Below, one piece after another: positions 1,688-16,891 of a stretch of DNA of 64,000 nt. The notes under the pieces are model-generated. The model had not been told where the DNA came from, did not search any database, and saw nothing but the letters and a program-made list of their open reading frames with translations. How positions within the stretch are numbered: the first letter of the stretch is position 1; each line of letters opens with the position of its first letter. Origin of the DNA: Candidatus Borkfalkia ceftriaxoniphila (GTDB lineage: Bacteria > Bacillota > Clostridia > Christensenellales > Borkfalkiaceae); the NCBI RefSeq assembly GCF_004134775.1, contig NZ_SDOZ01000004.1, forward strand, positions 1 through 64,000. Reading direction: 5' to 3'. The position numbers and the translations under genes were made by a program.

Positions 1688-4600
1688 ATGGAAGGGAAAA
1701 AGAACAAACGTACCAAATCTATTTTACGGAAAACCCTGATCCCGATCGTTTTGGTGATCGTGTTTCAGACGGTGTTCTTTTTTTGCGCTCTTTTTGCGTC
1801 GGATACCTTTACGAACCTTCGCAACAACAGTTTCGAAATGTTCAACGGCAAAGTGATTAATGTTTCCGATTCGCTCACCAACAACATGATCCGCGTATGG
1901 TCGAACATCAGCGAAACGGAGAACGACGTCGTAAGCCGCGTGGAAACGATTCTTCAAGAACAAGGAAAATCGTACGAAGATATTGCAAAACCTTTTACCG
2001 AAGAGGAAAAGGCCACGGAAGGCCCCCGTACCTATCACATCAACGAAATTATATTATCCGAAATCGCGGACGATATCCTGTATATGCTGCGCAAAAATCT
2101 GGTCACCGACGCGTTTATCGTGCTCGACGGCCCCGGAACGCGCAACCAGCCGCAGGACTATTATAAGGGAGGCATCTGTCTGAGGGACATGGATCCTACC
2201 TCCGCGAGTTCGGATAACGCCGATATCGAAATGACTTACGGCAGTATCGAGATCCGGGATCAACTGCACGTGACGGGAAACAAAACCTATTCCACCTTTG
2301 AATTTTCCGAAGAATGCTCCAACGATAACGAGGCATTCTTTTTCAAACCGCTGAATGCGGCGAAAGAAGCGAAAAAAGTATCCGATACGAAAAATTATGC
2401 TTATTGGTCGCCTTCATATAAAATGAATCAGTACGGCGAAACGATCGTATCGTATTCGATCCCGCTTATCTCTTCGAAAGGCGACGTGTTCGGAGTGCTG
2501 GGCATCGGCCTTTCCGTCGCTTATCTGAGCGGGCAAGTCAATATCGGAAACACGTCGGGAGAATACGGCGCCGCGGTATGCCTCGTGAAAAACAACGAGG
2601 ACGGCAGCGTGGATCTGGAACGCATCGTACATTCGGGCAGTCTGGGACAGAGCGTTTTCGGTTCCGTAAGCAGTGTTTCCGCCTTGCCGGACGGCTATAC
2701 GAATTTTTATAAGATCCCTTCTTCCAAAGTCGTATGCAACGTCAAGACGTTGGATATTTACAATCGGAACGGCCCGTTCAGCGGCGACGTATGGGCGGTG
2801 GTCGGCATGGTCGACGAGGGCGTTCTGATGACCTTTTACAATACCATTCTCATCGCGATGTCAGCCTCGGCGCTGGCGGCGGTGGCGCTCGCGCTCGTGG
2901 CGGTCACGCTCGTCGTGCGCAGTATCAGCAAGCCCATTGCGGAACTTGCGGAGGATACGCAGAATTACAGCGCGGCGAATGAGCAGCCTTTGCGCAAGAC
3001 GTATATCAAGGAAATAGACCTTTTAGCCGAAGCATTTTTGGAAAAGAGCGAAACCGCCGAAAACATCGCGCAGAAAGTTTCGGGCATCATCTCCAATTCG
3101 CGCACGCAGATCGGCGTGTTCGAATACGTGTACGGGGAAAAGAAAGTTTTCGTCAGCCGCAACGTCTATACGCTCATGCGCTGGCAGGACGAACGCATAA
3201 ACGATTATATCGGCATCGATCGTTTCCGCCGCCTCATGTCCAAGATCGATCCTTTAAACGAAAGGGACGAAACAGTCACCTATAAGATCCCCGAAGAAGA
3301 AGCGTGGATCCAGATCTCCGTCGTGGACGACGGTAAAAAGATCATCGGCACGATCACCGATATCACCCTCGACGTCATCGAAAAGAGGCGCATCGAATTC
3401 GAGCGCGATTTCGACGTTCTGACGGGGCTCAACAACCGCCGCTATTATAACGATAAATTGTACGAACTGTGCGAAACGCCCGAACTCGTCCGTATCGGCG
3501 CCATGGTGATGATCGATCTGGACGAACTCAAATACGTCAACGATACCTACGGGCATTCTTACGGCGATAAGTATATTCAGTTGATGGGCGAACTCATCAA
3601 GGGTTTTCCCCGCAGCAATGCGCTCATCGCAAGACTTTCGGGCGACGAGTTTGCCGTCTTTCTCTACGGCTACGCGAGCGAAGCGGAACTGCTTGCAGAA
3701 GTGCAGGGCGTATGGTCGCGTATGGAACGGTGCTTTCTGCCGCTGCCGAGCGGTGAAAATTTCAAACTGCGCGCCTCGGGCGGCTATGCGCTGTATCCGC
3801 GCAACGCCGCCACGCCCGAAGAACTGTTCCGTTACTCCGATTACGCCATGTATTCGGTCAAGCATACGGATAAGGGGCGCCTCGGCGATTTCGATATCGA
3901 AGACTACCGCAAGAACGAATTTATCATGAGCGGGCAGGAAGAATTTTTCCATATCGTAGAGAGCCGCAAAGTCAGATACGCTTTTCAGATGATCGTGGAC
4001 GCGCGCACGGGCGAGACCTACGGATACGAGGCTCTCATGCGCCCGCAGGGGGAAACCATCAAATCCCCCGTGCAGATCCTCGAGATCGCCAAGAAGTGCG
4101 CCAAACTCAACGTGATCGAACAACTCACCTGGAATGGGGCGCTGGAAACGTATCAGACCCGTTTCGGCGAGGGGCTTTTGGAAAAGAAAGCCAGGCTGTT
4201 CATCAATTCCATCAGCGACTGTATTATTCCGCCCGACGATATCCGCGCGTTGGAAACGGCGTACGGCGAACTTCTCGGCAACGTGGTTTTGGAGATCATG
4301 GAAAACGAGCCGATCAGTTCTTCTTCCACATTGGAAAAGAAAATAAGTTATCTGGGGCGCTGGAATGCGGAACTTGCCATAGACGATTTCGGTTCCGCCT
4401 ACAATACCGACGCGGTGCTTTTGATCACCCAGCCTCAGTACATCAAATTCGAACGCGCCATCATACAGGGCATTGACGCCTCTTCCGATAAGATGCTGAT
4501 GGTGGAAAATATGGTCAATTATATGCACCGCCGCAATATCAGGGTGATCGCCGAGGGCGTGGAAACGTTCGGGGAGATGAAGAAAGTCATCGAGTTGGGC

Positions 4601-4702
4601 GTCGACTATATCCAGGGCTACTATCTGCACAAGCCGAGTTTTACCGAGTTCGGCTTATCCGACGAAAAGAAAAAAGAAATTCTTTTATGCAACGGAAAAT
4701 AA
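1688..4702 (+). CDS. membrane sensor GGDEF/EAL protein (c-di-GMP synthesis/hydrolysis)
   Basis: The protein (1004 aa) has a transmembrane helix near residue 15-37, a large extracellular CACHE-like sensor to about residue 380, a second helix at about 390-415, a HAMP-like segment, then GGDEF (about 560-720) and EAL (about 760-990) domains. The cyclase motif reads SGDEF, a variant that can still be active. The EAL side looks complete: YEALMRP, the Asn of LFINS, the Glu of LEIMENE, IDDFG, the Lys of YIKFER, IAEGVE and IQGYYLHKP. It therefore should at least hydrolyse c-di-GMP. It follows the solute-binding lipoprotein by 3 bases and shares its promoter, so the lipoprotein may feed its CACHE sensor. 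Confidence 0.88.
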   Translation: MEGKKNKRTKSILRKTLIPIVLVIVFQTVFFFCALFASDTFTNLRNNSFEMFNGKVINVSDSLTNNMIRVWSNISETENDVVSRVETILQEQGKSYEDIAKPFTEEEKATEGPRTYHINEIILSEIADDILYMLRKNLVTDAFIVLDGPGTRNQPQDYYKGGICLRDMDPTSASSDNADIEMTYGSIEIRDQLHVTGNKTYSTFEFSEECSNDNEAFFFKPLNAAKEAKKVSDTKNYAYWSPSYKMNQYGETIVSYSIPLISSKGDVFGVLGIGLSVAYLSGQVNIGNTSGEYGAAVCLVKNNEDGSVDLERIVHSGSLGQSVFGSVSSVSALPDGYTNFYKIPSSKVVCNVKTLDIYNRNGPFSGDVWAVVGMVDEGVLMTFYNTILIAMSASALAAVALALVAVTLVVRSISKPIAELAEDTQNYSAANEQPLRKTYIKEIDLLAEAFLEKSETAENIAQKVSGIISNSRTQIGVFEYVYGEKKVFVSRNVYTLMRWQDERINDYIGIDRFRRLMSKIDPLNERDETVTYKIPEEEAWIQISVVDDGKKIIGTITDITLDVIEKRRIEFERDFDVLTGLNNRRYYNDKLYELCETPELVRIGAMVMIDLDELKYVNDTYGHSYGDKYIQLMGELIKGFPRSNALIARLSGDEFAVFLYGYASEAELLAEVQGVWSRMERCFLPLPSGENFKLRASGGYALYPRNAATPEELFRYSDYAMYSVKHTDKGRLGDFDIEDYRKNEFIMSGQEEFFHIVESRKVRYAFQMIVDARTGETYGYEALMRPQGETIKSPVQILEIAKKCAKLNVIEQLTWNGALETYQTRFGEGLLEKKARLFINSISDCIIPPDDIRALETAYGELLGNVVLEIMENEPISSSSTLEKKISYLGRWNAELAIDDFGSAYNTDAVLLITQPQYIKFERAIIQGIDASSDKMLMVENMVNYMHRRNIRVIAEGVETFGEMKKVIELGVDYIQGYYLHKPSFTEFGLSDEKKKEILLCNGK

Positions 4703-4720: not shown

Positions 4721-7027
4721 GTGAAAAAGCATTCTGCCAAATTCAATAAAACCATGTGGATCAAGACCATCGTCGTCGCGGTGGTCCTTATATCCGTGGA
4801 ACTCATCGCGGGCTTTTCTCTGTATCACAACGCCGTCACGTCCGCATACGACGGTACTTTCCGTCAGTACGCCGCGTCGCTTTCGGGCATCGAGCGCGAA
4901 CTGAATGAAATTTTTTCCGAAGACGTCGGAAATTTCGACGAAGAGGACGGGTTCGCTCTTTCAGGCTCGCTCGACGCCGCGGGCGCGGAGATCGAGATCG
5001 GGGGGCAAAGTTATGCCGTGCAATCGCAGACGATTGCCCATAACCTGCAGGAGCGCCCCGTGCTCTTCTATTCTTTAAGCGATATGTGCAAAGGAATCGG
5101 CGATGAAACGCTATATACCGTTTATACAAAATCTGTAAACGGCGAAACGGCACTGCGCCTGCGCCCCTTTGAAGAGGCCGTGAAACAACTTTCCATGGCG
5201 GGGTTCGAAGGGATCGCGCTCGCGAGCGGCAGCGGCCGCGTCGTCTTTGCGACGGGTGTCTTCGACGGCTATTTTCAGGATTACGGTTTCGAATTGCAGC
5301 CGTCGGAAGCGTCGTCCGTGCGCATCGTGAACGAGGGCGAAGGGCACTACGCCTGTTCTGTCAGAGTTCTGGGCGCTACGGGCTATTATCTCGGCGCGTT
5401 CGTGGATTTCACGGGACAGCAGAAAATTTCCGATTCCCTTGCGCGGGAGATCGCGGTCATTCTTATCGTGACGGGCGCGGTGGTCGGCGTACTGTTCCTT
5501 TTATATTCTTTCTGGGTAGGGCTCAACGAAAATTCGTTCCGCTATTCCTACCGTATCGTTACCGACGCGGACGGGAAAATTATCAGAGCCAACGCGAAAT
5601 TCAAACAGGATTTCCCCCAGACGGTGGAGATCAAAGAGAACGTGGCGCGGTTCGAAGAAAAGACTTTCAACGCCGTCAAGATTTCCGCGTTCGGCGCCGA
5701 GCGCCTGCTCGCGTGCGTCGCGAAAAAACAGACGAACGGCAGGATCCGCCTTTCCGCGAGCGAACTCGCGCTCCCGTACGAATCGGATCTTGAAAATAAA
5801 GATCTGATGAAAAACGTGTACGACGTTTTTACAGCCAAGGGCGGGCGCGTTCTGATAGGCACGATCTTTATCGGCAATCTCGCCAATTTCAAGGCGATGT
5901 TCGGCACGGAATTCGCCCAAAAAGTCTATGCGAAGATCTTTGCAAAGACCGAGCAGGAATTTACTTACGCCTACGAGATAGACGACAGTCACATCGGTAT
6001 TCTGTATCCCGAGGGGAAAAAACTTGATAATTTATTGCAGGATATCAAAGACGCGGTGAATTTTATCGATCAGCCCGTTATGATCGACGGCAACCTCGTC
6101 AATATCGGCGCGAAATTCGGATTCGCCGTCTGCGACGCGGTCATGGAACGGCGCGATTTCGAGTACGCGGCGATTGCGGCGGACGCCGCGTTAAAGCGCG
6201 CTGCGGAAGACAAGATGAACGATTATTTCATCTATCACGAATCCCAGAAAAAACAGTACGCCAAATTTTTCGTGCAATACGATATCCGTAAAATGCTCGA
6301 CGACGGCGATTTTTACATGGAATATCAGCCGCAGTACAGTCTGAAAGAAAACCGCATTACGGGATTCGAGGCTCTCTTCCGCGTGCGCAACCCGAAAATG
6401 AACGTGAGCGCGTATGAGATCATTTCCTATGCCGAGCGTACGGGAAACATGGTCATGCTGGGAGATTTTGTCTTCGATACAAGCATGCGTTTTGCCAAGA
6501 TCATCGAAGGCAGGGGCGTCACGGTTTCTTTGAACGTTTCGCCAATTCAACTGATGCAGGCGGGCTTTGTCGAGAACTTTTTGAAAATATATCATAAATA
6601 CGATCTGAAAGCGGGTACGATCTCGGTGGAGATCACCGAATCCTTTCTCATGCACACTTTCGACGAAACGCTCAAAAAATTGCAGATTCTGTGCGAGCAG
6701 GGCATTTCTATCCATCTGGACGACTTCGGTACCCAATATTCTTCGCTGTTATATCTGAAAAAACTGCCCATTGCCGCCATTAAGATCGACCGCGAATTTA
6801 TCAGCGATATCGCGGCCAACGAGTACAGCCGCGCGATCACGCGCATGGTGCTCAATATTACCAAGGAACTGAAACTTTTGAGTATTTCCGAGGGGATCGA
6901 AACCAAAGAACAACTTCAGATCTTGCAGGAAATGGGCTGCGACGTCATTCAGGGGTACTTGATCGGACGCTCCGTAAAGGAAGACGCCGCGTTGGAAATG
7001 TTGCGAAATTTCAAACCCGAAATTTAA
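4721..7027 (+). CDS. membrane EAL phosphodiesterase with degenerate GGDEF
   Basis: The product (768 aa) starts at GTG 4721 behind ACGGAG. One helix at about residue 10-30 and another at about 245-268 bracket an extracellular sensor region of unknown fold. The middle domain has the GGDEF fold position, but its motif is replaced by YEIDDSHIGI, so cyclase activity is unlikely. The EAL domain (about 530-765) keeps FEALFRV, the Asn of SLNVSP, the Glu of VEITES, LDDFG, the Lys of AIKIDR, SEGIE and IQGYLIG, matching an active c-di-GMP phosphodiesterase. It lies 18 bases behind the first GGDEF/EAL gene and is probably cotranscribed with it. Confidence 0.85.
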   Translation: MKKHSAKFNKTMWIKTIVVAVVLISVELIAGFSLYHNAVTSAYDGTFRQYAASLSGIERELNEIFSEDVGNFDEEDGFALSGSLDAAGAEIEIGGQSYAVQSQTIAHNLQERPVLFYSLSDMCKGIGDETLYTVYTKSVNGETALRLRPFEEAVKQLSMAGFEGIALASGSGRVVFATGVFDGYFQDYGFELQPSEASSVRIVNEGEGHYACSVRVLGATGYYLGAFVDFTGQQKISDSLAREIAVILIVTGAVVGVLFLLYSFWVGLNENSFRYSYRIVTDADGKIIRANAKFKQDFPQTVEIKENVARFEEKTFNAVKISAFGAERLLACVAKKQTNGRIRLSASELALPYESDLENKDLMKNVYDVFTAKGGRVLIGTIFIGNLANFKAMFGTEFAQKVYAKIFAKTEQEFTYAYEIDDSHIGILYPEGKKLDNLLQDIKDAVNFIDQPVMIDGNLVNIGAKFGFAVCDAVMERRDFEYAAIAADAALKRAAEDKMNDYFIYHESQKKQYAKFFVQYDIRKMLDDGDFYMEYQPQYSLKENRITGFEALFRVRNPKMNVSAYEIISYAERTGNMVMLGDFVFDTSMRFAKIIEGRGVTVSLNVSPIQLMQAGFVENFLKIYHKYDLKAGTISVEITESFLMHTFDETLKKLQILCEQGISIHLDDFGTQYSSLLYLKKLPIAAIKIDREFISDIAANEYSRAITRMVLNITKELKLLSISEGIETKEQLQILQEMGCDVIQGYLIGRSVKEDAALEMLRNFKPEI

Positions 7028-7118: not shown

Positions 7119-8522
7119 ATGATCCGTCAACTGCTCGCAGGCGCAGAATTGAAACCCGGAGTCGCCATTCTGTTGGTCGTCCTGTTCGTCCTCGTTGCAG
7201 CGGCGGCGATGTTTTTCCTCTATCGCGGTATCCGCAAGGACCGAAACCGCTATATCGCGGATAAGTTGAAGATCGGCGAACTTAACAAGGATTCCTTTGA
7301 CGATTTGATTCTGCGCCGCTTTCATTCCGCGGGCAAAAATACGCATTTCAGCGTCTTTTTCATCGAGATCAACGATGCGAAAAATATCCGCGAATCGTTC
7401 GGTGAAAAACAATTCGCAGGCGCGGTCAATACACTCGTCGAACGCCTGTACAGGCTCCTTCCCAAAGGCAGCAAGGTCTGCCTGTACGAATACGACCTTT
7501 TGGCGGTTCTCGTCGACGAGGACCTGGATAAAAAAGCGCTCTCCGATCTGGCGTCGTTCTGCCTGTTGGAAGGGCGTAAAACCGTCAGTTTGATCACGCG
7601 CGTGCGGCTGGAACTCGATCTGAGCATCGGCGTCAACAGTTACAATGCGTTCAGCGCCAATTTTAACGCGTTCAAGCAGAATCTCGAACTCGCGCTCGCC
7701 GTATCCAAAAGAAACGGACTCAATAAATATACGATCTACTCTTCGGAAATCTCCAACAGCGAGAGCGAAGAATATAAATATTATCAGGAGATAAAATCGG
7801 CGATCGAGGCGAACGAGTTTACTTTATACTATCAGCCCGTGTATGATTTAAAGAACAATGTTATTTTCGCCTACGAAAGCCTGTTGCGCTGGAATCACAA
7901 GACGCTCGGCGTGCTCGCTCCGGGAAAATTTCTGAATATCTTGGAGCAATCGGGCGACATCAACTGGGTCGGAGCGTGGGCGTTCGAACAACTGCTCATC
8001 GCGCAGCAGCGTTATAAGCAGAAAAATCCCGATAAAAACGTCACTTTTTCCATGAACCTTTCGCCCAAACAGTTAATGAATCCCAATCTTACCGACGATT
8101 TCCGCCGCGTGCTCAAAAAATATAAAGTGCCTGCAAACGAAGTGTGTATGGAGATCGTGGAATTCGCCATGTTCGACAAAATGCCTGAGGTGCACGAAAA
8201 TATTCAAAAACTCGTACAGTGCGGCTTTCAGATCGCGCTCGACGATTTCGGACTGGAAATGAGTTCTTTGAAGCGGTTGGAAAATCTGCAGGTCAACTGG
8301 GTAAAACTCGACCGCTCGTTTATCGACGAAGCGAAAGACGACCTTTTGATCGGAGGCGTGGCAAACTCGCTGGTCGGCTACGCGGAAAAGAACGATTTCC
8401 GTATCATCGCCGAGGGGATCGAGGACGACGTAACGCTGGATTTTATCAAGGAACTTTCGATCCCGTACGGGCAGGGCTATTATTTCGGCAAGCCCAAGGC
8501 GCCCGCGGAATACGATATTTGA
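7119..8522 (+). CDS. membrane-anchored EAL phosphodiesterase with degenerate GGDEF
   Basis: The product (467 aa) has one N-terminal membrane helix (about residue 15-37), a cytoplasmic GGDEF-like domain whose motif is lost (YEYDLLAVLVDED at its place), and an EAL domain from about residue 230. The catalytic motif is ESL instead of EAL, a common tolerated variant. The Asn of SMNLSP, the Glu of MEIVEF, LDDFG, the Lys of WVKLDR, IAEGIE and GQGYYFGKP are all present. It should hydrolyse c-di-GMP to pGpG. The ribosome site is AAAGGAGG. It stands directly before the c-di-GMP riboswitch operon, which fits a local signal circuit. Confidence 0.85.
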   Translation: MIRQLLAGAELKPGVAILLVVLFVLVAAAAMFFLYRGIRKDRNRYIADKLKIGELNKDSFDDLILRRFHSAGKNTHFSVFFIEINDAKNIRESFGEKQFAGAVNTLVERLYRLLPKGSKVCLYEYDLLAVLVDEDLDKKALSDLASFCLLEGRKTVSLITRVRLELDLSIGVNSYNAFSANFNAFKQNLELALAVSKRNGLNKYTIYSSEISNSESEEYKYYQEIKSAIEANEFTLYYQPVYDLKNNVIFAYESLLRWNHKTLGVLAPGKFLNILEQSGDINWVGAWAFEQLLIAQQRYKQKNPDKNVTFSMNLSPKQLMNPNLTDDFRRVLKKYKVPANEVCMEIVEFAMFDKMPEVHENIQKLVQCGFQIALDDFGLEMSSLKRLENLQVNWVKLDRSFIDEAKDDLLIGGVANSLVGYAEKNDFRIIAEGIEDDVTLDFIKELSIPYGQGYYFGKPKAPAEYDI

Positions 8523-8549: not shown

Positions 8550-8578
8550 TTGACAATTTTATAATAATATTCTATAAT
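8550..8578 (+). promoter_or_regulatory. consensus promoter of the riboswitch operon
   Basis: TTGACA (8550-8555), exactly 17 bases, TATAAT (8573-8578): a perfect match to the vegetative sigma consensus. Transcription should begin near 8585, immediately before the riboswitch, so regulation of this operon is left mainly to the RNA. Confidence 0.9.
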
Positions 8579-8585
8579 TAGAATA

Positions 8586-8662
8586 AGTTAAAAGCAAAGT
8601 ATCCAAAAGGGTATGACGCAAAGCTAAGAGCCTAAGTCGCAAGATATGGTTGTCAGTTGCCA
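8586..8662 (+). promoter_or_regulatory. c-di-GMP-I (GEMM-I) riboswitch aptamer
   Basis: The conserved GEMM-I elements occur in order: GCAAA (8594-8598), a hairpin with an AAAA tetraloop (8599-8614), the invariant GACGCAAAGC (8615-8624), the tetraloop-receptor GCCTAA (8630-8635) and a closing GG-TTG-TCAG-TTGCC (8648-8661) that fits the GGNAGCCGGGUUGCC consensus. A strong terminator begins at the 3' end of the aptamer. The setting agrees: three c-di-GMP enzymes lie upstream and surface-protein genes downstream. Whether binding turns expression on or off cannot be settled, because the aptamer and terminator share only about three bases. Confidence 0.9.
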
Positions 8663-8695
8663 AAACATTCTATGATGTTTTGGCAATTTTTTTTT
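8659..8695 (+). terminator. riboswitch expression-platform terminator
   Basis: Perfect stem GCCAAAACAT (8659-8668) / ATGTTTTGGC (8675-8684) with a six-base loop, followed by AA and nine T. It ends 34 bases before the first gene of the operon, so it is a regulated attenuator and not the end of the gene upstream. Confidence 0.92.
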
Positions 8696-8729
8696 CATAA
8701 AATCATTTGATCATTCGGGGAGTCGTGCT

Positions 8730-9413
8730 ATGAAATGGTTAAAGCGTCTGCAAATGATGCGCATATCAAAAATCGTAATAGCCGTTTCGCTTGCACTTTC
8801 CGTTATTTTTGCGGGCTTTACGATCTACGGGAACAAAGTCGGCAATTTTATCATCAATGTTTCCAACGACGGCGCGCATATTGCCGCGACCATGAAAGAG
8901 GATCTGTCCGATCTGTCCTCCCGCCTGTCCGTTTCGGGACTGGAAGGGCAGGGCGCCACCACATATGAAGATATTCCCCGCTCGATCGCCAGGGGGATCG
9001 GAAACAAGAGCGACACCGTATATCAGACCTATATGGCATTCAGTTTTTATCTGGTCAACAAGACCGAACGCTCGGTGGATTACGACATGAGCCTGAACGT
9101 CGTCGACAGCGTCGGCAGGGCGATCGATATCATGCGCGTCATGATCATCGAAGGCGACGCGGAAGGCGGCGATATATACGCCAATCCCGAAGCGAGCGAA
9201 GAGGGCGAAAACTGGCTGAAACAGCACACTTCATACGAAACGATCGCATTTATTTCCGAAAAACAACTGATGGCGAAGCGGGTGACCGATTTTCAGCCCG
9301 AAGACAAAGTGAAATACACGATCGTCATCTGGGTGGAAGGTTGGGATATGGACTGCACCGACGAGCGGCTGCAAGACCGTATTAAAATGAAACTGGACTT
9401 TTACGCGTATTAA
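8730..9413 (+). CDS. membrane-anchored TasA/camelysin-like surface protein
   Basis: The product (227 aa) has a short basic start, a membrane helix at about residue 12-30 and an extracellular domain rich in beta-strand. Its C-terminus reads VIWVEGWDMDC then ends in KLDFYAY, close to the C-terminus of the next protein (VKVWLEGTDGDC), so the two are probably related by duplication. That pattern is seen in TasA/camelysin-type proteins of Clostridia. Unlike its neighbour it lacks a clear SipW-type cleavage site, so it may stay in the membrane as an anchor or assembly base (inference). It is the first gene after the c-di-GMP riboswitch. Confidence 0.6.
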   Translation: MKWLKRLQMMRISKIVIAVSLALSVIFAGFTIYGNKVGNFIINVSNDGAHIAATMKEDLSDLSSRLSVSGLEGQGATTYEDIPRSIARGIGNKSDTVYQTYMAFSFYLVNKTERSVDYDMSLNVVDSVGRAIDIMRVMIIEGDAEGGDIYANPEASEEGENWLKQHTSYETIAFISEKQLMAKRVTDFQPEDKVKYTIVIWVEGWDMDCTDERLQDRIKMKLDFYAY

Positions 9414-9471
9414 GGTTGCTACGGGCGACGCCCGTAAAAATATTATGAAATGATCAAAGGAGAGATATCTT

Positions 9472-10410
9472 ATGAAAGCAACAAAAAAACTGATCGGCGC
9501 TTTGGCGGCGTTGGTCATAGCGATCGCCGTAGCCACGGGCTCCACTTTCGCCTGGTTCACGACAAATCAGAAAGTTACGGTGGAAAGTTTGGACTTACAG
9601 GTTACTTCCGGTAACGACGATCTGCAAATCGCGTTGGGCAAACCGACGAGCGCTACGGATTGGTCGAATTTGAAGTTCGGGCGTAAAATTTTATCTGCGG
9701 ATGTTTTGAAGGATAAAACGATTTCGCTCGACGCTTTGACGAGCGCCGATACGGATCACAACGGCGTGGAATTGAAAGATAAAGAGAACTCTGCGGCTGG
9801 TGAGGGTTCTTATTTGGAATTCGACCTCTCATTTTATTCAAATAAAGGCTTGAGCGTATTGCTCGGAAATACTGCCGAGGTTGCTGTTAAAGACACAGCC
9901 GTGCAAGCGCATCAGATTTTCGCCTGGGACGATTCGATTACGGAAGCAACCTATGGGCAAGCCGTTGCAAAAGGTGCGAGAATCGAGGCGAGAGCCGCGC
10001 ACGCATCGCGTATCGCGTTCGTTACGGGCAGCGGGGACTCTGCGACGGGAAAAGTTTGGGCGCCTTTCGAAACGACGGCAAACGGCGGTAACGATACGAC
10101 GCAAGCCGGGTTCTATAAGGGCAACCTTGCCGCGGCGTACTATAATTATTCGTTAGGCGTCTCCGAATCAATAGCTCAGACAGTTGCTAAAAATGTAATA
10201 TTGCCGTTGACGAATGACAGTACATATGCTTCTACGAGTGAGATCTTGATTCTTGAAAAACCCGCGGCTGAAACTGCAAGTATTTATTACGGCACCGTAA
10301 CTGTGAAAGTTTGGCTGGAAGGCACGGACGGCGATTGCCTTAATTCCATCTTCGAAGACAAAATGACTGTTATGTTAAATCTTACGGGTATTATGAAGTC
10401 CGGTTCGTAA
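9472..10410 (+). CDS. secreted TasA-like fibre protein with SipW-type signal peptide
   Basis: The product (312 aa) begins with a basic stretch, a hydrophobic core and STFAWFTTN, the form of a SipW-dependent signal peptide. The mature part is Thr/Ser/Asn-rich and predicted to be largely beta-strand, ending in the VKVWLEGTDGDC motif. In Bacillus, TasA with this type of signal is cut by SipW and forms matrix fibres; the same role is likely but not proven here. The ribosome site AAAGGAGAG is strong. A large hairpin follows the gene, which could raise its level relative to the genes behind it. Confidence 0.72.
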   Translation: MKATKKLIGALAALVIAIAVATGSTFAWFTTNQKVTVESLDLQVTSGNDDLQIALGKPTSATDWSNLKFGRKILSADVLKDKTISLDALTSADTDHNGVELKDKENSAAGEGSYLEFDLSFYSNKGLSVLLGNTAEVAVKDTAVQAHQIFAWDDSITEATYGQAVAKGARIEARAAHASRIAFVTGSGDSATGKVWAPFETTANGGNDTTQAGFYKGNLAAAYYNYSLGVSESIAQTVAKNVILPLTNDSTYASTSEILILEKPAAETASIYYGTVTVKVWLEGTDGDCLNSIFEDKMTVMLNLTGIMKSGS

Positions 10411-10432
10411 ATCTAAATATTTACAAAACCAG

Positions 10433-10477
10433 GCAATCACAAAAAGCGGGCGATGTTCGTCCGCCTTTTGTGATTGC
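10433..10477 (+). promoter_or_regulatory. intercistronic mRNA hairpin after the fibre gene
   Basis: Stem GCAATCACAAAA (10433-10444) / TTTTGTGATTGC (10466-10477) with an inner GCGG/CCGC. No T-run follows, so it is more likely a stabiliser or processing site for the upstream mRNA than a full terminator; partial termination is possible. Confidence 0.65.
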
Positions 10478-10530
10478 GATCATTGCGGTTGTGTTTATTT
10501 CACGCGCGAAAAAAGTAACAAAGGTGTATT

Positions 10531-11226
10531 ATGCGTAACAAAAAAGTAATCAATATCGTCGTAAACGTCATCGTAGCCATTATTCTGGTGTTCGTTTTTA
10601 TTCTCACGCTCAATATCATTCTGTCGGGGGATAAAGGTTACACTTCGATTTTCGGCACCGCTTACGTATCGGTGGAAAGCAATTCGATGAAGGGCGATAA
10701 AGCCGATAACTTCCAGAAGGGCGATCTTCTGAAAATCAAGATCCTCGATGAAGAAGAAAAGAAAAATTTGCAGCCGGGCGATGTGATCACTTTTTGGGAC
10801 AATACCATCGTGGATAATCAACTGGTACTGAATTCGCATAGGATTATCAAGGTCGAGAAGCAGTCGGATGGCTCGGTAAGATACGAAACCAAGGGCGACA
10901 ATAATCTCGATGCCGATAAAATGCTTATACCCGACGTAACCATCGTCGGTATCTACGAGGGCAAGATCGGCGGACTTGGCAACGTCGTTTCCTGGTTTCA
11001 CTCTTCCACGGGCTTTTTTGTGTGCATCGTGCTCCCCGCGTTTTTGATCGTGGCGTATTTTGCGTTCAATCTGGTCATGGTGCTTCGCGAGAGGAACAAA
11101 GTCAGCGACGAAACGAAAAAAGAACGACTGCGGCAAGAACTCTTAGAGGAACTTCGCGCGGAAGGTAAACTATCTGTCGGAAATGACGACGAAATTTCGG
11201 AACCGGATAACAAGGATCAGGATTAA
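10531..11226 (+). CDS. SipW-type signal peptidase I
   Basis: The product (231 aa) is an S26B (ER/SipW-type) signal peptidase with an N-terminal membrane helix (about residue 8-30) and a C-terminal one (about 160-185). The nucleophile is the Ser of VESNSM. At the general-base position a His is found (LNSHRII) where ordinary bacterial signal peptidases have Lys, the mark of the SipW class. The TKGDNN box is present. It should remove signal peptides of the TasA-like proteins encoded just before it. The charged C-terminal tail is in the cytoplasm. Confidence 0.85.
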   Translation: MRNKKVINIVVNVIVAIILVFVFILTLNIILSGDKGYTSIFGTAYVSVESNSMKGDKADNFQKGDLLKIKILDEEEKKNLQPGDVITFWDNTIVDNQLVLNSHRIIKVEKQSDGSVRYETKGDNNLDADKMLIPDVTIVGIYEGKIGGLGNVVSWFHSSTGFFVCIVLPAFLIVAYFAFNLVMVLRERNKVSDETKKERLRQELLEELRAEGKLSVGNDDEISEPDNKDQD

Positions 11227-11234
11227 CGACATCG

Positions 11235-11253
11235 GGGCGGCATGCGTCCGCCC
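11235..11253 (+). promoter_or_regulatory. small intercistronic hairpin
   Basis: GGGCGG (11235-11240) / CCGCCC (11248-11253) between the signal peptidase and AAA+ genes, directly before the ribosome site TAGGGAGG. It may tune translation of the AAA+ gene. Confidence 0.4.
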
Positions 11254-11273
11254 GTAGGGAGGCGCCGTCTGGT

Positions 11274-12815
11274 ATGGCTGAATTTGCGAAATACTACGTG
11301 GATTTTTTGTGGAACGCGCTGCAAAATATCTGGAACTTTATCTATTCCATTCTCTACGCGTTTTACAAGATCGTCGTTCTCGATACGATCAATTATTTCA
11401 AGGCGCTGGGCGCAGTTGTAGGCAATTTCGACGTACTCGGTTGGATCTGCCTTATTTTGGTTTCTCTCGTCAATATCGCGCTCGTCTTTTTTATCGTATA
11501 TCGCTTGGTCCAACTCATCCGCCGATATATCGTTTACCGCGGCAAAGAAGTGGAAAAAGACAAACTGATGGAGGAGATCGCCCGCTTGCACGAACAGGCG
11601 GAAGAACTCGTCAAAGAAAAAAATCAGATTTTCGCGCTCAAAGTGGGCAATCAGATTTCCGAAGGCTATGTCCCGAACGACGCGCTCGCCGTCACCTCGG
11701 ACGAGGGGACGGGCGGCAATCGGGAAGCGAGCCGATTTACGAAACTGATCAACCTCGACGAAAAGTACGGGCGCAATCCCAATATCATCTTTATGTCGGA
11801 TACCGACATGATCTCCTTGCAGGATATCGTGAAAAGATTTGTCGATTTCGCCGCGTCGCAACTCCAACTCTACTATACCGAAGATACGATCCGACTGTTT
11901 TTCGCAGGCCTTGCGACTTCCAAAATCATTATTTTAGAGGGCATCTCGGGTACGGGTAAAACAAGCCTTCCCTACGCAATGGGCAAGTTTTTCAACAACA
12001 ATACGTCCATCGTTTCCGTGCAGCCGTCCTGGCGCGACCGCGCGGAACTTGTCGGATATTTCAACGAATTTACCAAAAAGTTCAACGAAACGGACTTTTT
12101 GAACAGCCTTTACGAAACGACGCTGCGCGAAGATCCCAATTTTATCGTACTCGACGAAATGAACCTCGCGCGTATCGAATACTACTTCGCGGATTTTTTA
12201 TCCATTATGGAAATGCCCGATATAGCGGAATGGAAGATCGATCTCATCTCGTCGCCCTCTCCGACCGACCCGAAAAACGTCATTTACGGAAAACTTTTGG
12301 TGCCGCAGAACGTCTGGTTCGTGGGCACGGCGAACAACGACGATTCCACCTTTACCATCACCGACAAGGTGTACGACCGCGCCATCGCGCTCGAACTCAA
12401 TCAGAAAGCTGATTACTTCGATGCGCCCATGACCGAAAGTTTCAACTGCACGTTCAATTATCTGGAATCCCTGTTCGACAGGGCGTACAAAGAATATGAG
12501 ATTTCCGATAAGAATATTGCGCTCATCAAAGATCTGGACGCCTTTATACAGTCGAAATTCAAGATCAGTTTCGGCAACCGTATCATGAAACAGTTGAAAC
12601 TGTTCGTTCCCGCTTACATGGCTTGCGGCGGTACGGAGTCGGGCGGCATCGATTTCATCGTCACGAGCAAGATCTTACGCAAATTCAATTCGCTCAACCT
12701 GCCGTTTCTGACCAAAGAGTTGCAGGAACTTATCGCTTACTTCGACCGAAAGTTCGGCAAGGGCACGATGAAATATTCCATCGCGTACATTCGTGAATTG
12801 CAAAAAGTGAACTGA
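11274..12815 (+). CDS. membrane-anchored McrB-type AAA+ ATPase
   Basis: The product (513 aa) starts with an amphipathic/membrane region and a clear helix at about residue 55-80, then a charged coiled segment (to about 125), then an AAA+ domain. Walker A is GISGTGKTS (about 222-231), Walker B is FIVLDEMNLARIEYYFADF (about 288-306), a form typical of McrB, and the sensor region reads FVGTANNDDS in place of the usual GTMNTADRS. McrB proteins are motors that work with McrC. Here the N-terminal DNA-recognition domain is replaced by membrane anchoring, and the gene lies among signal peptidases and surface proteins. A role in assembly or remodelling at the membrane is inference; a defence role is the alternative. 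Confidence 0.78.
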   Translation: MAEFAKYYVDFLWNALQNIWNFIYSILYAFYKIVVLDTINYFKALGAVVGNFDVLGWICLILVSLVNIALVFFIVYRLVQLIRRYIVYRGKEVEKDKLMEEIARLHEQAEELVKEKNQIFALKVGNQISEGYVPNDALAVTSDEGTGGNREASRFTKLINLDEKYGRNPNIIFMSDTDMISLQDIVKRFVDFAASQLQLYYTEDTIRLFFAGLATSKIIILEGISGTGKTSLPYAMGKFFNNNTSIVSVQPSWRDRAELVGYFNEFTKKFNETDFLNSLYETTLREDPNFIVLDEMNLARIEYYFADFLSIMEMPDIAEWKIDLISSPSPTDPKNVIYGKLLVPQNVWFVGTANNDDSTFTITDKVYDRAIALELNQKADYFDAPMTESFNCTFNYLESLFDRAYKEYEISDKNIALIKDLDAFIQSKFKISFGNRIMKQLKLFVPAYMACGGTESGGIDFIVTSKILRKFNSLNLPFLTKELQELIAYFDRKFGKGTMKYSIAYIRELQKVN

Positions 12816-12834
12816 CCGCGAAGGAGAAACGGGC

Positions 12835-14454
12835 ATGGACAAAGAATATCTTCAGAATTTTATGGAAAAAATGCGCGGCGGCGGATTGTTGTACGACAAT
12901 TTTTACAAGGCGCTGCGCGGCGGGAAGAACGAAGTATTCCATAACGTCGTGTCCGAGGCGGTCACTCTCGACGACAGTTGGATCCTGACGCTGGAAGGCG
13001 CGCTGCATTCCATCGAACAGATCGCGCGCAATCCCCGCAAATTCATCATCGACGAAGAACTGATCGTTGACGTGGAGCGCGCGCGTCGCACCAACGCAAA
13101 GACGATACGTCATCTCGCCTCCAACACGAAAAATATTCAAAGCATTTCCGAAAGCGGGGAGGTGCGCCCCAAAAAACTTTTGACGACCGAGATGCAGGAA
13201 GATCTCGCCATATACGAGAACCGTTTTGTGTGCGCACTCGTACAGAGGCTCGTGACTTTTGTCGAACAGCGCTACAACGATATCAACGGCAAAATGCACA
13301 TGTACGATATCACCAACGTGAATTTGAGATCGAATTTTCATTACGGCGAAAGCGAGGTGGAATGCGGACTTTTCGTCAAGATGAAGGAACCGCCGCACGA
13401 CAAAGTTCTGCTCGAACGCAACCGCGGACTGCTGGAAAAGGTAAAGGCGCTGCGCCGCCGTCTGAAAATTTTACAGAGCACGGATTTCATGCGTCAGTTA
13501 AACGGCAAAAAGCCCGTGCACCCGCCCATCATGAAGACCAATCTCATCAAGATGAACGTCGATTATCAGAACTGCTACAAATTGTGGCTGTACATTTCGT
13601 CGTACACGTTCGTCGGTTACAGCGTGGAAGTCAAGGACAAAAACCTGCCCGTAGACGGCGATTATTTCGACGATCTCACGGTTCTTGCGGGTTTGAGCGT
13701 GCAGTCGCTGTTTACGAACAAACTTTTAAAGGCCGAGGAATATGAAAATATTCCCTTCGGAGAGCCGAAACGAAAAAATTATAAAGTCGTCACGAAATAT
13801 AAATTTATGCCGTCTTTTGCAGAGGATAAAAAGACGGCGGGCGAGGATACCGTCAACGAGTTTTATTTCCGTCAGATGAAGAACGAACTCGTCAAAGCGA
13901 CAGGGCTCGGCACGTTGGCGGAAGAAAAACAACTGAAAATGAATTTTCAGCGTTTTTTTAAGGCGATCGAAAAGATCAACAACGCCATGTTGGACGAGGT
14001 GATCGCCTCGCAGATCCCCGCGAAAAAAGATCTGCTGAAAAAGACTGCCATTCAGAAAAAAGAACAGGCGGTCAAAGACGCGCAGTTCACGTACCGCCGT
14101 TATCAGCAGATTTCGCGCCTCAGGAGAGAGGAACTCGAAAAGTCGCTCAAAAAAGAGAGCCGCGAACTTCTGAAATTGGAGAAACTGAAAGCCGAACTGG
14201 ATAAGGAAAAGGGTAAACGCCGCGACAGGCTGGAACAGGCGCGCAAGAAGAAAGCGCAGTTGGAAAGGATCAAAGCGAAAAAACTTCTCGCGGAACAAAA
14301 GGCAAAACTGTACGAAGAGGGGCTGCGCGAAAAGGACGCCGCAAAGTCGGAAGAACTCGAAGAGGCAAAGCGTCGGAAACGCGAGGAAACCAAGCGGAAA
14401 AGGGAACTCAAAAAATTGGAAGAATTACGGGAAAAATACGATGGGCTTGATTGA
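12835..14454 (+). CDS. DUF2357/McrC-like partner with long coiled coil
   Basis: The product (539 aa) has an alpha/beta N-terminal half (about 1-400) that resembles DUF2357 proteins, the usual partners of McrB-type AAA+ proteins, judged by general pattern (TTEMQEDLAIYENRFVC) and by context, not by a search. The last 130 residues are almost only Lys, Glu, Arg and Leu in heptads, a long coiled coil. I see no PD-(D/E)XK nuclease motif of the kind that McrC carries. Together with the gene before it (19 bases away) this makes an McrBC-like pair without evident nuclease. The ribosome site is GAAGGAGAA. Confidence 0.55.
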   Translation: MDKEYLQNFMEKMRGGGLLYDNFYKALRGGKNEVFHNVVSEAVTLDDSWILTLEGALHSIEQIARNPRKFIIDEELIVDVERARRTNAKTIRHLASNTKNIQSISESGEVRPKKLLTTEMQEDLAIYENRFVCALVQRLVTFVEQRYNDINGKMHMYDITNVNLRSNFHYGESEVECGLFVKMKEPPHDKVLLERNRGLLEKVKALRRRLKILQSTDFMRQLNGKKPVHPPIMKTNLIKMNVDYQNCYKLWLYISSYTFVGYSVEVKDKNLPVDGDYFDDLTVLAGLSVQSLFTNKLLKAEEYENIPFGEPKRKNYKVVTKYKFMPSFAEDKKTAGEDTVNEFYFRQMKNELVKATGLGTLAEEKQLKMNFQRFFKAIEKINNAMLDEVIASQIPAKKDLLKKTAIQKKEQAVKDAQFTYRRYQQISRLRREELEKSLKKESRELLKLEKLKAELDKEKGKRRDRLEQARKKKAQLERIKAKKLLAEQKAKLYEEGLREKDAAKSEELEEAKRRKREETKRKRELKKLEELREKYDGLD

Positions 14455-15037
14455 ACCGAAAAATAAGAAAAAAAAGATTTTGTCAGCCGTAAGTTTTACT
14501 CTTGCGGCTGTAATCTTTCTGCTTGCGCTGTACGTTTTTTTCGTTTCGCTGGACGCAAAGAGCAAAAATGAACCGGTAGAATTTTTCGGGCGCTCGTTCG
14601 TCATCGTGCTCACCGATTCCATGACGCCCGAGATCGGCGTAGGCGAACTCGTCGTCATCGAGAGCACGGGCATCGAAAGCGTTCAGGTAGGGCAGAACGC
14701 GGTCTTTGTCAGCCTTAGCGGAATGCTGAAAGGGCAGCGCATCATTCACAAAGTCGTGGAGGTCGGTCACGACGAACAGGGCGTTTATCTCCGCACACAG
14801 GGCGTGAAAGAGGGGGCGCCCGTCGATCCAGATCCCGTACGGGCGGAAAACTTTACGGGCGTGGAAGTCGGGCACTCCGTCTTTTGGGGCAAGATCATCG
14901 GCTTTTTCACCAAACTTGAAAACTGGCTGTTGCTGCTCGTCGTGCTCGTCGCAGTGAGCATCGCGATCATGCAGATCGTCAAAATCGTCAAAATTGCAAA
15001 GAATCCCGAGGATAGCGACAAACAGGATCGATCGTAA
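14441..15037 (+). CDS. second SipW-type signal peptidase I
   Basis: The product (198 aa) has N- and C-terminal membrane helices around an S26B peptidase core. The nucleophile is the Ser of LTDSMTPE and the base is the His of RIIHKV, as in SipW; the usual GDNN box is altered to TQGVKEGAPVDPD. The start overlaps the gene before it by 14 bases, so translation is probably coupled. Two such peptidases in one operon suggest distinct substrates or steps, for example one for each TasA-like protein. Confidence 0.8.
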   Translation: MGLIEPKNKKKKILSAVSFTLAAVIFLLALYVFFVSLDAKSKNEPVEFFGRSFVIVLTDSMTPEIGVGELVVIESTGIESVQVGQNAVFVSLSGMLKGQRIIHKVVEVGHDEQGVYLRTQGVKEGAPVDPDPVRAENFTGVEVGHSVFWGKIIGFFTKLENWLLLLVVLVAVSIAIMQIVKIVKIAKNPEDSDKQDRS

Positions 15038-15140: not shown

Positions 15141-15935
15141 ATGAAAGACGGATTTAGCGCACCTTCGGAAGAATTGGAAAAATTACAAAAGATCATCGAT
15201 ATCGACAAGTGGCTTGCGAGCGAAAAGGCGGGCAAGGATCTGTGCGGCGAGGCGAGTTATTGCGCCTGTTGCGTCAAGGCGGAAACGTATCCCTGCGCGC
15301 GGGCGGCGCTGCGCGAACGCGCGGCAAACCAACCCAAAGATATTTCCGACGAAGTCGCCGCGACCGTCAGCGAATACGGGCCCGATGAGGAAACGGAGGA
15401 GATTTTGAAAGAGGAAAACGCAGAAGAGAAAGCCGAAGAGTCGCTCGCGGGCAGGGAACTCGTGACGCGGTATCGCCGCAGTTTCCGCTCGCGGCTCATT
15501 CAGAACGAAAACATTCAGGAATTTTACAGTCAGTTGAAAAACAACATTTTGGGATATGCGGGCGTGAAGTGCCGCATGAGTTTCCATTATGAATCTTTCC
15601 GCGTCGGCAAAAGCCTGATCGCCAAATTCAACGTGTCGGGCAAGACGCTTTGCCTGTATCTCGCCCTCGCGCCGAGCCTGTATGAAAACGGAAAATACCG
15701 TTTTGAGGACGTATCCGCGAAAAAGACGTACGCGCTCGTGCCGATGAAGTTGAAAATTACTTCCGGGCGCGCCATGAATTACGCCAAAGAATTGATCAAA
15801 CAATTGGCAACCAGGTACGATCTGGCGAATGTAGGCAGCATATACATGGAGTATCGCTATGCCTATGCCTCGGACGATTCTCTGATCGCCAAAGGGCTGA
15901 TCAAACCGTATACGGTCGCCGTGCGGGCAAAGTAG
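15141..15935 (+). CDS. conserved protein of unknown function
   Basis: The product (264 aa) starts at ATG behind CGGAGGG. The N-terminal 80 residues hold a Cys cluster (CGEASYCACCVKAETYPC) that could bind metal, then an acidic linker. The C-terminal 150 residues begin with RYRRSFRSRLIQ and contain SFHYESFRVGKSLIAKF and KTLCLYLALAP, a pattern I associate with an uncharacterised domain common in Clostridia and often repeated. Only one copy is present here. No membrane segment. Function unknown; its place next to the c-di-GMP operon may be incidental. Confidence 0.65.
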   Translation: MKDGFSAPSEELEKLQKIIDIDKWLASEKAGKDLCGEASYCACCVKAETYPCARAALRERAANQPKDISDEVAATVSEYGPDEETEEILKEENAEEKAEESLAGRELVTRYRRSFRSRLIQNENIQEFYSQLKNNILGYAGVKCRMSFHYESFRVGKSLIAKFNVSGKTLCLYLALAPSLYENGKYRFEDVSAKKTYALVPMKLKITSGRAMNYAKELIKQLATRYDLANVGSIYMEYRYAYASDDSLIAKGLIKPYTVAVRAK

Positions 15936-15988: not shown

Positions 15989-16017
15989 TTGACAAACGCG
16001 TGCATTCGTGATACGAT
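15989..16017 (+). promoter_or_regulatory. promoter of the YwaF-like gene
   Basis: TTGACA (15989-15994), 17 bases, TACGAT (16012-16017). The -35 box coincides with an in-frame TTG that could be mistaken for the start codon of the gene behind it; the promoter shows that the real start is further down. Confidence 0.75.
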
Positions 16018-16075
16018 ATATATTGAGAAAATATGTCGAAAAAAGTCGCATTTTGCGGCAAGTGGGAGAAATATC

Positions 16076-16891
16076 ATGTCTGAATACGTGCTTGGACCGA
16101 GCGAGGGGACACCGCCGCCCGCAGGTCCGCACAATATGCCGCCGCCGCGCGTTTTCGGTTGGCAGCATTTACTGTATCTTGTCGTCGTCATCGCCGTCGG
16201 CGCCGCGATCTTTCTGCTCGTACGTAAAAAATACGCTAAAAACGATAGGGCGTTATCATTGATTTTCAGAGTGTGCGGCGTGATTCTATTGTTTTTCGTT
16301 ACAATCAACCGTGTCAGTGAAATATTTCGGTTGCACGGCTGGTACTACATCTTTCCCAACTCCTTTTGCGGGCTGGGTTCGTTCGTGCTCGCTTTTGCGC
16401 TTATATTCGGAAAAAAAGACAATATCGTCCTGCATTTTATAGCGTATCTGACTATGTTCGGCGGGATCGTAAATCTCATTTATCCCTATTACGTGGGGCA
16501 GCACCGTCTGTTTTTTTATCCAAGCACGATCTCGGGGCTTTTGCATCATACGATGTGTGTATTTATATTCGTTCTTATGGTTTATACAGGCTATATGAAA
16601 CCCGACATAAAGAAATGGTACGCGATTCCATTGGGGCTCAGTACGTTTATGACCGTGGGCGTATTTGAACTGAGTATGTTTTTACCGCTCGATCCCATGT
16701 ACGACGCCATGAATATCATCGTCGCGATCGTGCCCGATACTATTCTCACCTGGTGGTTCGTGGGGTTGGGTTTCGTGCTTGCTTATGCTGTTTTTATGGT
16801 CGCGTGGCATTTTGCCAACAAGGCGCGGAACGCGCGCAAACAAGAGGCGGCCGCTTCGACGCTGGAACGCGCGGCTGACAAAAAAATGTAA
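16076..16891 (+). CDS. multi-pass membrane protein, YwaF/TMEM164-like
   Basis: The product (271 aa) begins at ATG 16076 behind GTGGGAG, after the promoter. A Pro/Gly-rich tail of about 25 residues precedes seven hydrophobic helices, and the C-terminus is Arg/Lys/Ala-rich. The second to fourth helices (FPNSFCGLGSF and a following LIYPYY) resemble the YwaF (TIGR02206) family, whose role is not known. That assignment rests on general likeness. It is probably a single-gene unit. Confidence 0.55.
   Translation: MSEYVLGPSEGTPPPAGPHNMPPPRVFGWQHLLYLVVVIAVGAAIFLLVRKKYAKNDRALSLIFRVCGVILLFFVTINRVSEIFRLHGWYYIFPNSFCGLGSFVLAFALIFGKKDNIVLHFIAYLTMFGGIVNLIYPYYVGQHRLFFYPSTISGLLHHTMCVFIFVLMVYTGYMKPDIKKWYAIPLGLSTFMTVGVFELSMFLPLDPMYDAMNIIVAIVPDTILTWWFVGLGFVLAYAVFMVAWHFANKARNARKQEAAASTLERAADKKM

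Follow-up and report, generated by a model that had tools for sequence, protein, structure and literature searches.

We analyzed a window of 64,000 nt from Candidatus Borkfalkia ceftriaxoniphila (assembly GCF_004134775.1, contig NZ_SDOZ01000004.1, positions 1-64,000, forward strand), which contains a six-gene operon preceded by a riboswitch for cyclic di-GMP (c-di-GMP). On balance, this is likely to be a c-di-GMP-activated surface-fibre operon of the kind named CoCoPALM, in which a membrane-anchored AAA+ protein and its partner would power the processing or assembly of secreted subunits. Its six plus-strand open reading frames (ORFs) encode two fibre-type proteins, T1 (8730-9413) and T2 (9472-10410), a SipW/ER-type signal peptidase (10531-11226), a membrane-anchored McrB-like AAA+ nucleoside triphosphatase (NTPase; 11274-12815), a McrC-like DUF2357 protein (12835-14454), and a second SipW/ER-type signal peptidase (14441-15037). 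The spacing of 47 bp ahead of the AAA+ gene and 19 bp ahead of the DUF2357 gene, followed by a 14 bp overlap into the second peptidase gene, fits a single operon. An initial annotation of this DNA had listed a perfect promoter, a GEMM-I riboswitch, a terminator, and six genes, among them two for SipW-type peptidases, one for a membrane McrB-type AAA+ protein, and one for a DUF2357-like coiled-coil protein; all are present in the sequence, with the exception of the “TasA/camelysin-like” label that it attached to the first two proteins.

The leader begins with a sigma-70-type promoter (TTGACA-17-TATAAT; 8550-8578, plus strand) that matches the consensus at 12 of 12 positions and is the best of 18 sites between 7000 and 16500, where shuffled sequences have a mean of 9.8. 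The promoter scan detected no strong plus-strand promoter ahead of the AAA+/DUF2357 pair, with only two sites, at 10895 and 11362, that match at 9/12. A weak internal promoter is possible, because the region as a whole is richer in sites than its shuffles. A c-di-GMP-I riboswitch aptamer follows on the plus strand at 8583-8664, scoring 64 bits against RF01051 (gathering score 35); nothing else in the 64 kb reaches an Rfam gathering score. The aptamer was aligned residue by residue and belongs to a 22-copy alignment with 21 invariant columns. Compared with its class it is ordinary and full-length, and the unusual feature is the type of operon it controls. An intrinsic terminator on the same strand (8655-8688), a hairpin with a 15-pair stem and a U-tract, takes up the aptamer 3' end in its 5' arm.

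The same arrangement recurs in other bacteria. We took the best 80 of at least 476 relatives from one scan of a genome collection, added the window, and labelled genes by iterated hidden Markov model searches of the relatives' ORFs as E (EAL/GGDEF), T (fibre-type), S (SipW), B (AAA+), or D (DUF2357). The recurring order is E-E-riboswitch-T-T-S-B-D-S, with additional T genes in many loci. With the window included, B is preceded by S (54) or T (13) in all 67 loci that extend 700 bases or more upstream, and is followed by D in 71/80 and by T in 9/80. D itself is followed by S in 55 of 65 loci, by T in 9, and in the remaining one by a different gene. Median gaps are 34 nt before B, 15 nt before D, and -4 nt after D, and a signal peptidase lies within 6 kb of B on the same strand in 49 of the 50 loci with enough flank. 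Each of the nine loci without D shares an assembly with a D-bearing copy (L056 by the same isolate name as L030). In this comparison of gene order, which the initial annotation had proposed, relatives do keep the pair within the operon, and it was not found travelling alone. The nine loci (L042, L044, L048, L050, L051, L053, L055, L056, and L057) hold a second AAA+ copy that lacks DUF2357 and has fibre-type genes and a giant protein of 1571-2431 aa after it (some broken by contig ends); of the nine giants, the two that were scanned (L042 and L053) matched no Pfam family.

Judging by record titles, the loci are mostly from Clostridia, Acholeplasmatales, or other Bacilli/Mollicutes, and cultured carriers among them are Acholeplasma oculi (L049), A. 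granularum (L045), and Paracholeplasma vituli (L022). In the order of genome G025, a match at E<=1e-100 was found in 78 of 150 genomes (69 near full-length), whereas in the family of genome G001 a match at 1e-20 was found in 36 of 101, with only 8 nearly full length and most of the rest without the N-terminal region. Of 398 genomes in the phylum to which G001 belongs, only G001 itself matches. The system is thus frequent within one order, with a patchy distribution outside it.

The riboswitch accompanies the operon across these genomes. When a model made from 22 Rfam-detected copies was run on the window and the 80 loci, it returned 78 hits, all 78 on the strand of B (two cut by contig ends). 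Of the 39 loci that extend 6 kb or more upstream, 29 have a riboswitch there. Six of the ten loci without one (L031, L044, L046, L048, L051, L053, L055, L057, L077, and L079) belong to the copies that lack D. The original Rfam model, run on the 35 whole genomes that hold 37 of the loci, matched 106 times (105 above the cut-off) in 32 genomes and never in 14 control genomes; 54 of the 106 fall inside the 37 loci, against 1.3 expected by length. A second sample comprised 20 regions of G025's order, none copying an earlier locus, which were picked for a full-length B and contig room regardless of riboswitches. Here the riboswitch was found upstream in 17/20, with 39 of 39 hits on B's strand, S preceded B in 19/20, and D followed B in 19/20 (L111 ends at B). 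The regions lacking a riboswitch hit were L112, with about 3.3 kb upstream present, L120, and L123. The last is a true exception to the conserved order, having full-length AAA+, DUF2357, and SipW genes, ten unlabelled ORFs upstream, and no fibre gene, upstream SipW, or riboswitch.

A further 15 regions were chosen around McrB genes with an NxD motif in the family of G001. Three of them (L100, L102, and L103) carry the same operon and riboswitch; no riboswitch was found in L101 (about 0.9 kb upstream present) or L104, both near the type, or in ten more distant regions. In L091, L092, and L105, the NxD McrB genes (tandem in L091) lie beside ORFs of about 800-1800 aa with no SipW nearby, and represent a different system. 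Tandem c-di-GMP-I riboswitches, three to four in a row, stand ahead of the same operon at L118:5326-5777, L036:6053-6368, and L115:13684-14007.

The initial annotation had named no precedent for a SipW fibre operon and an McrBC-like pair in one c-di-GMP-controlled unit, which overlooks a passage in Bell et al. 2024 (PMC11090510) where the AAA+/signal-peptidase pairing is named CoCoPALM, with no function given and the matter deferred to a later paper. As described in that passage, CoCoPALM consists of an NxD McrB fused to an FtsB-like membrane/coiled-coil part, signal peptidase neighbours, and a coiled-coil McrC homologue. The window type resembles it in the McrB signature shortened to NxD, usually then followed by D or E (N354-x-D356-D357 in 81/81 AAA+ proteins here), in a membrane segment and a coiled coil, the part that Bell et al. 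call FtsB-like in CoCoPALM, in the nearby signal peptidase, and in the PF09823 partner with its predicted helix. It differs in that the CoCoPALM section says nothing of c-di-GMP, of a riboswitch, of cargo of the TasA type, or of a fixed order; a word search of that paper's main text found neither “cyclic di-gmp” nor “biofilm”. Among the matches listed in full-text searches of the open literature there was no later CoCoPALM paper and none joining CoCoPALM to c-di-GMP. As far as the literature could be searched, the c-di-GMP layer and the fixed gene order are new, and the pairing itself was already named. CoCoPALM was named from gene neighbourhoods without a function, and the riboswitch, the recurring SipW/fibre order, and searches of mobile-element collections that turned up no full-length AAA+ protein all speak for a surface structure of the sessile lifestyle rather than for restriction.

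Sequence comparison relates the AAA+ protein to McrB chains (E 4.4e-6), with no Pfam AAA model reaching its cut-off, and the Walker A Lys, Walker B Asp-Glu, N354, D356, D357, and R369 are conserved in 81/81. A hydrophobic segment occurs within the first 130 residues of 77/77 full-length AAA+ proteins, peaking from residue 57 in the window; the coiled coil is read from sequence alone. The DUF2357 protein scores 32.9 bits against PF09823 (cut-off 23.3) and is predicted to carry a C-terminal helix of about 130 residues, placed at 405-535 by AlphaFold2. In McrBC, according to PMC6624300, the stalk of McrC sits as a plug in the ring of McrB, much as gamma does in F1-ATPase, and a rotary mechanism with sequential hydrolysis has been proposed. 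The window type is like this type IV restriction system in its McrB-like AAA+ domain, its DUF2357 partner, and a likely stalk-in-ring activation, but differs in its membrane segment, in having no nuclease family that we could find, and in its motif: the NxxD GTPase signature of McrBC is replaced by NxD throughout the 81 proteins.

The remaining genes encode the predicted cargo and its processing enzymes. Both peptidases exceed the TIGR02228 cut-off of 51.85, at 58.2 bits for the first and 61.2 bits for the second. The dyad of SipW/ER-type signal peptidases is Ser-His, and it is represented by Ser52/His103 in peptidase 1 (Ser kept in 58/59 and His in 59/60 across loci) and by Ser60/His103 in peptidase 2 (65/65 and 63/63, respectively). 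T1 has an N-terminal hydrophobic segment, as read from its sequence, and, in an alignment of 25 chosen homologues, a C-terminal IW(V/L)EGxD-type motif; it falls below the cut-off of every family searched (Pfam and TIGRFAM-type models) and is probably secreted or anchored. T2 resembles SipW substrates, with a signal ending in TFAWFT, and is predicted to be a beta-rich fibre subunit, its modelled structure aligning best with pilus and fibre subunits, TasA among them. Homology links the T1 and T2 families (hhalign 98.3%). The TasA/camelysin label is not carried by the sequence, as the match to PF12389 reaches 15.6 bits against a cut-off of 22.5 and 0/25 family members match at E<=0.01. The model of the SipW-dependent signal peptide, TIGR04088, gives T2 14.3 bits against a cut-off of 19, and 1/25 members match at E<=0.01.

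In Bacillus subtilis, the tapA-sipW-tasA operon reportedly places the SipW peptidase beside secreted fibre substrates. The window operon is like it in that SipW adjoins its predicted secreted substrates, and differs in that its subunits fall outside PF12389; the same likeness and difference hold for sipW-bsaABCRSD of Clostridium perfringens, where SipW likewise lies beside secreted fibre substrates (PMC7395162), and a word search of the main text of that paper found neither “ATPase” nor “McrB”. In Acholeplasma, a SipW-type signal also occurs on a protein of 742-767 aa encoded by the second gene after an extra riboswitch (L045:13928-16969 and L049:13935-16890); the L045 protein bears a carbohydrate-binding module, CBM5/12, which we count for the fibre reading.

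A fibre or remodelling function is favoured over a hitch-hiking defence module, given the SipW or fibre gene that precedes B, the upstream riboswitch in both samples, and the failure to find a full-length AAA+ protein on plasmids, phages, or viral contigs. These observations favour the surface-fibre system proposed in the initial annotation; that the AAA+ pair drives its assembly is what we infer, and the recurrence of the same gene set in many other bacteria suggests that the motor helps build the fibre. T1 and T2 would be exported via Sec with SipW-type signal peptides, cut by the two Ser-His signal peptidases, and may polymerize as beta-rich subunits at the cell surface. By comparison with McrBC, the McrB-like protein would be held at the membrane by its N-terminal helix with the NTPase ring in the cytoplasm, the DUF2357 protein would act as a McrC-type activator extending its long helix, and the ring could energize extraction, processing, or an assembly step of the subunits, which is the least certain part of the scheme. 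By the same analogy, a ring that is anchored in the membrane and paired with a stalk protein in which no nuclease is recognized would be a ready motor where SipW substrates leave the membrane. We raise only tentatively the bolder idea that a McrBC-type ring motor was co-opted from nucleic-acid defence to build extracellular fibres, with a membrane McrB-like hexamer, which would turn a McrC-like coiled-coil stalk or be turned by it, pushing or extracting SipW-processed subunits at the command of a c-di-GMP riboswitch, in Clostridia and wall-less Acholeplasma relatives. If true, this would be a new type of energized fibre assembly in bacteria, and the cultured Acholeplasma and Paracholeplasma carriers make a McrBC-type motor in fibre assembly testable.

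The pair may instead be a membrane scaffold or quality-control NTPase with an FtsB-like anchor, for example one that clears misfolded or stalled subunits, or one that links fibre sites with the division machinery. The FtsB-like membrane/coiled-coil architecture described in the CoCoPALM passage of Bell et al. (PMC11090510) and the universal hydrophobic N-terminal segment agree with this, but Pfam finds no protease domain in the pair. The remaining data fit this reading and assembly alike; we think it rather unlikely. Less likely still is an anti-phage module that acts on invading nucleic acid at the membrane and is co-transcribed with the fibre genes, either because phages use the fibre as a receptor or because cells growing on surfaces run a higher risk from phages. 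The pair is akin to McrBC, PADLOC recognizes the AAA+ protein at 1.4e-43 with its candidate-defence model PDC-M26A (automated callers may therefore label it as defence), and sister NxD systems are predicted in PMC11090510 to be RNA-targeting defence. However, no nuclease family was found among the six operon proteins of the window locus (Pfam on all, PADLOC on four); for the DUF2357 protein, the structural model is weak and a degenerate PD-(D/E)xK could escape both. According to Bell et al. (PMC11090510), another nuclease always lies alongside when the McrC nuclease of a CoCoNuT is absent or has lost its activity. The pair is moreover tied to SipW/fibre genes and to a c-di-GMP riboswitch. AAA+-domain homologues do occur in 17 plasmid records and one phage record, but the full-length protein was found in neither collection (no plasmid record covers 80% of the query, and the phage record covers 57%), and of 24 stretches in viral contigs that matched two peptide patterns none is a relative.

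Returning to the surface-fibre operon, c-di-GMP probably turns it on, ligand binding itself being predicted. At high concentration c-di-GMP would bind the aptamer, and the bound aptamer would keep its 3' strand from the terminator and allow read-through of the operon; the two states should exclude each other because the terminator reuses that strand. A terminator built on the aptamer 3' strand was found in 61 of 74 distinct riboswitches, compared with 306 of 1480 shuffled controls (21%), and the minimum free energy fold of the window leader pairs the aptamer 3' end within the terminator. Although OFF-type c-di-GMP-I switches exist and 13 of the 74 riboswitches fail the overlap criterion, both results make it improbable that c-di-GMP halts transcription here and leaves the operon active in motile or dispersing cells low in c-di-GMP.

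Three plus-strand genes lie directly upstream and were read in the initial annotation as three c-di-GMP enzymes, of which the EAL domain stands in all; the GGDEF domain is clear in the first, unmatched in the second, and weak in the third. The first (1688-4702) encodes a 1004 aa protein with PF00990 at 99.6 bits and PF00563 at 122 bits, plus a weak Cache-like match below cut-off, the second (4721-7027) a 768 aa protein with PF00563 at 198 bits and no PF00990 match, and the third (7119-8522) a 467 aa protein with PF00563 at 197.7 bits and PF00990 at 27.7 bits (cut-off 23.8). Of the 38 loci with 7.5 kb upstream, 22 have EAL/GGDEF genes there in the same orientation as the operon, and none has them on the opposite strand. 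These adjacent enzymes may tune the c-di-GMP signal. Directly 3' of the operon, 15141-15935 encodes a 264 aa protein that falls below every family cut-off and was seen in one other of the 80 loci. It is followed by a 300 aa ORF (15989-16891) with a match to TMEM164 (PF14808, 40 bits, cut-off 25), whose true start is probably more downstream, since its TTG start coincides with a 10/12 promoter-like site at 15989.
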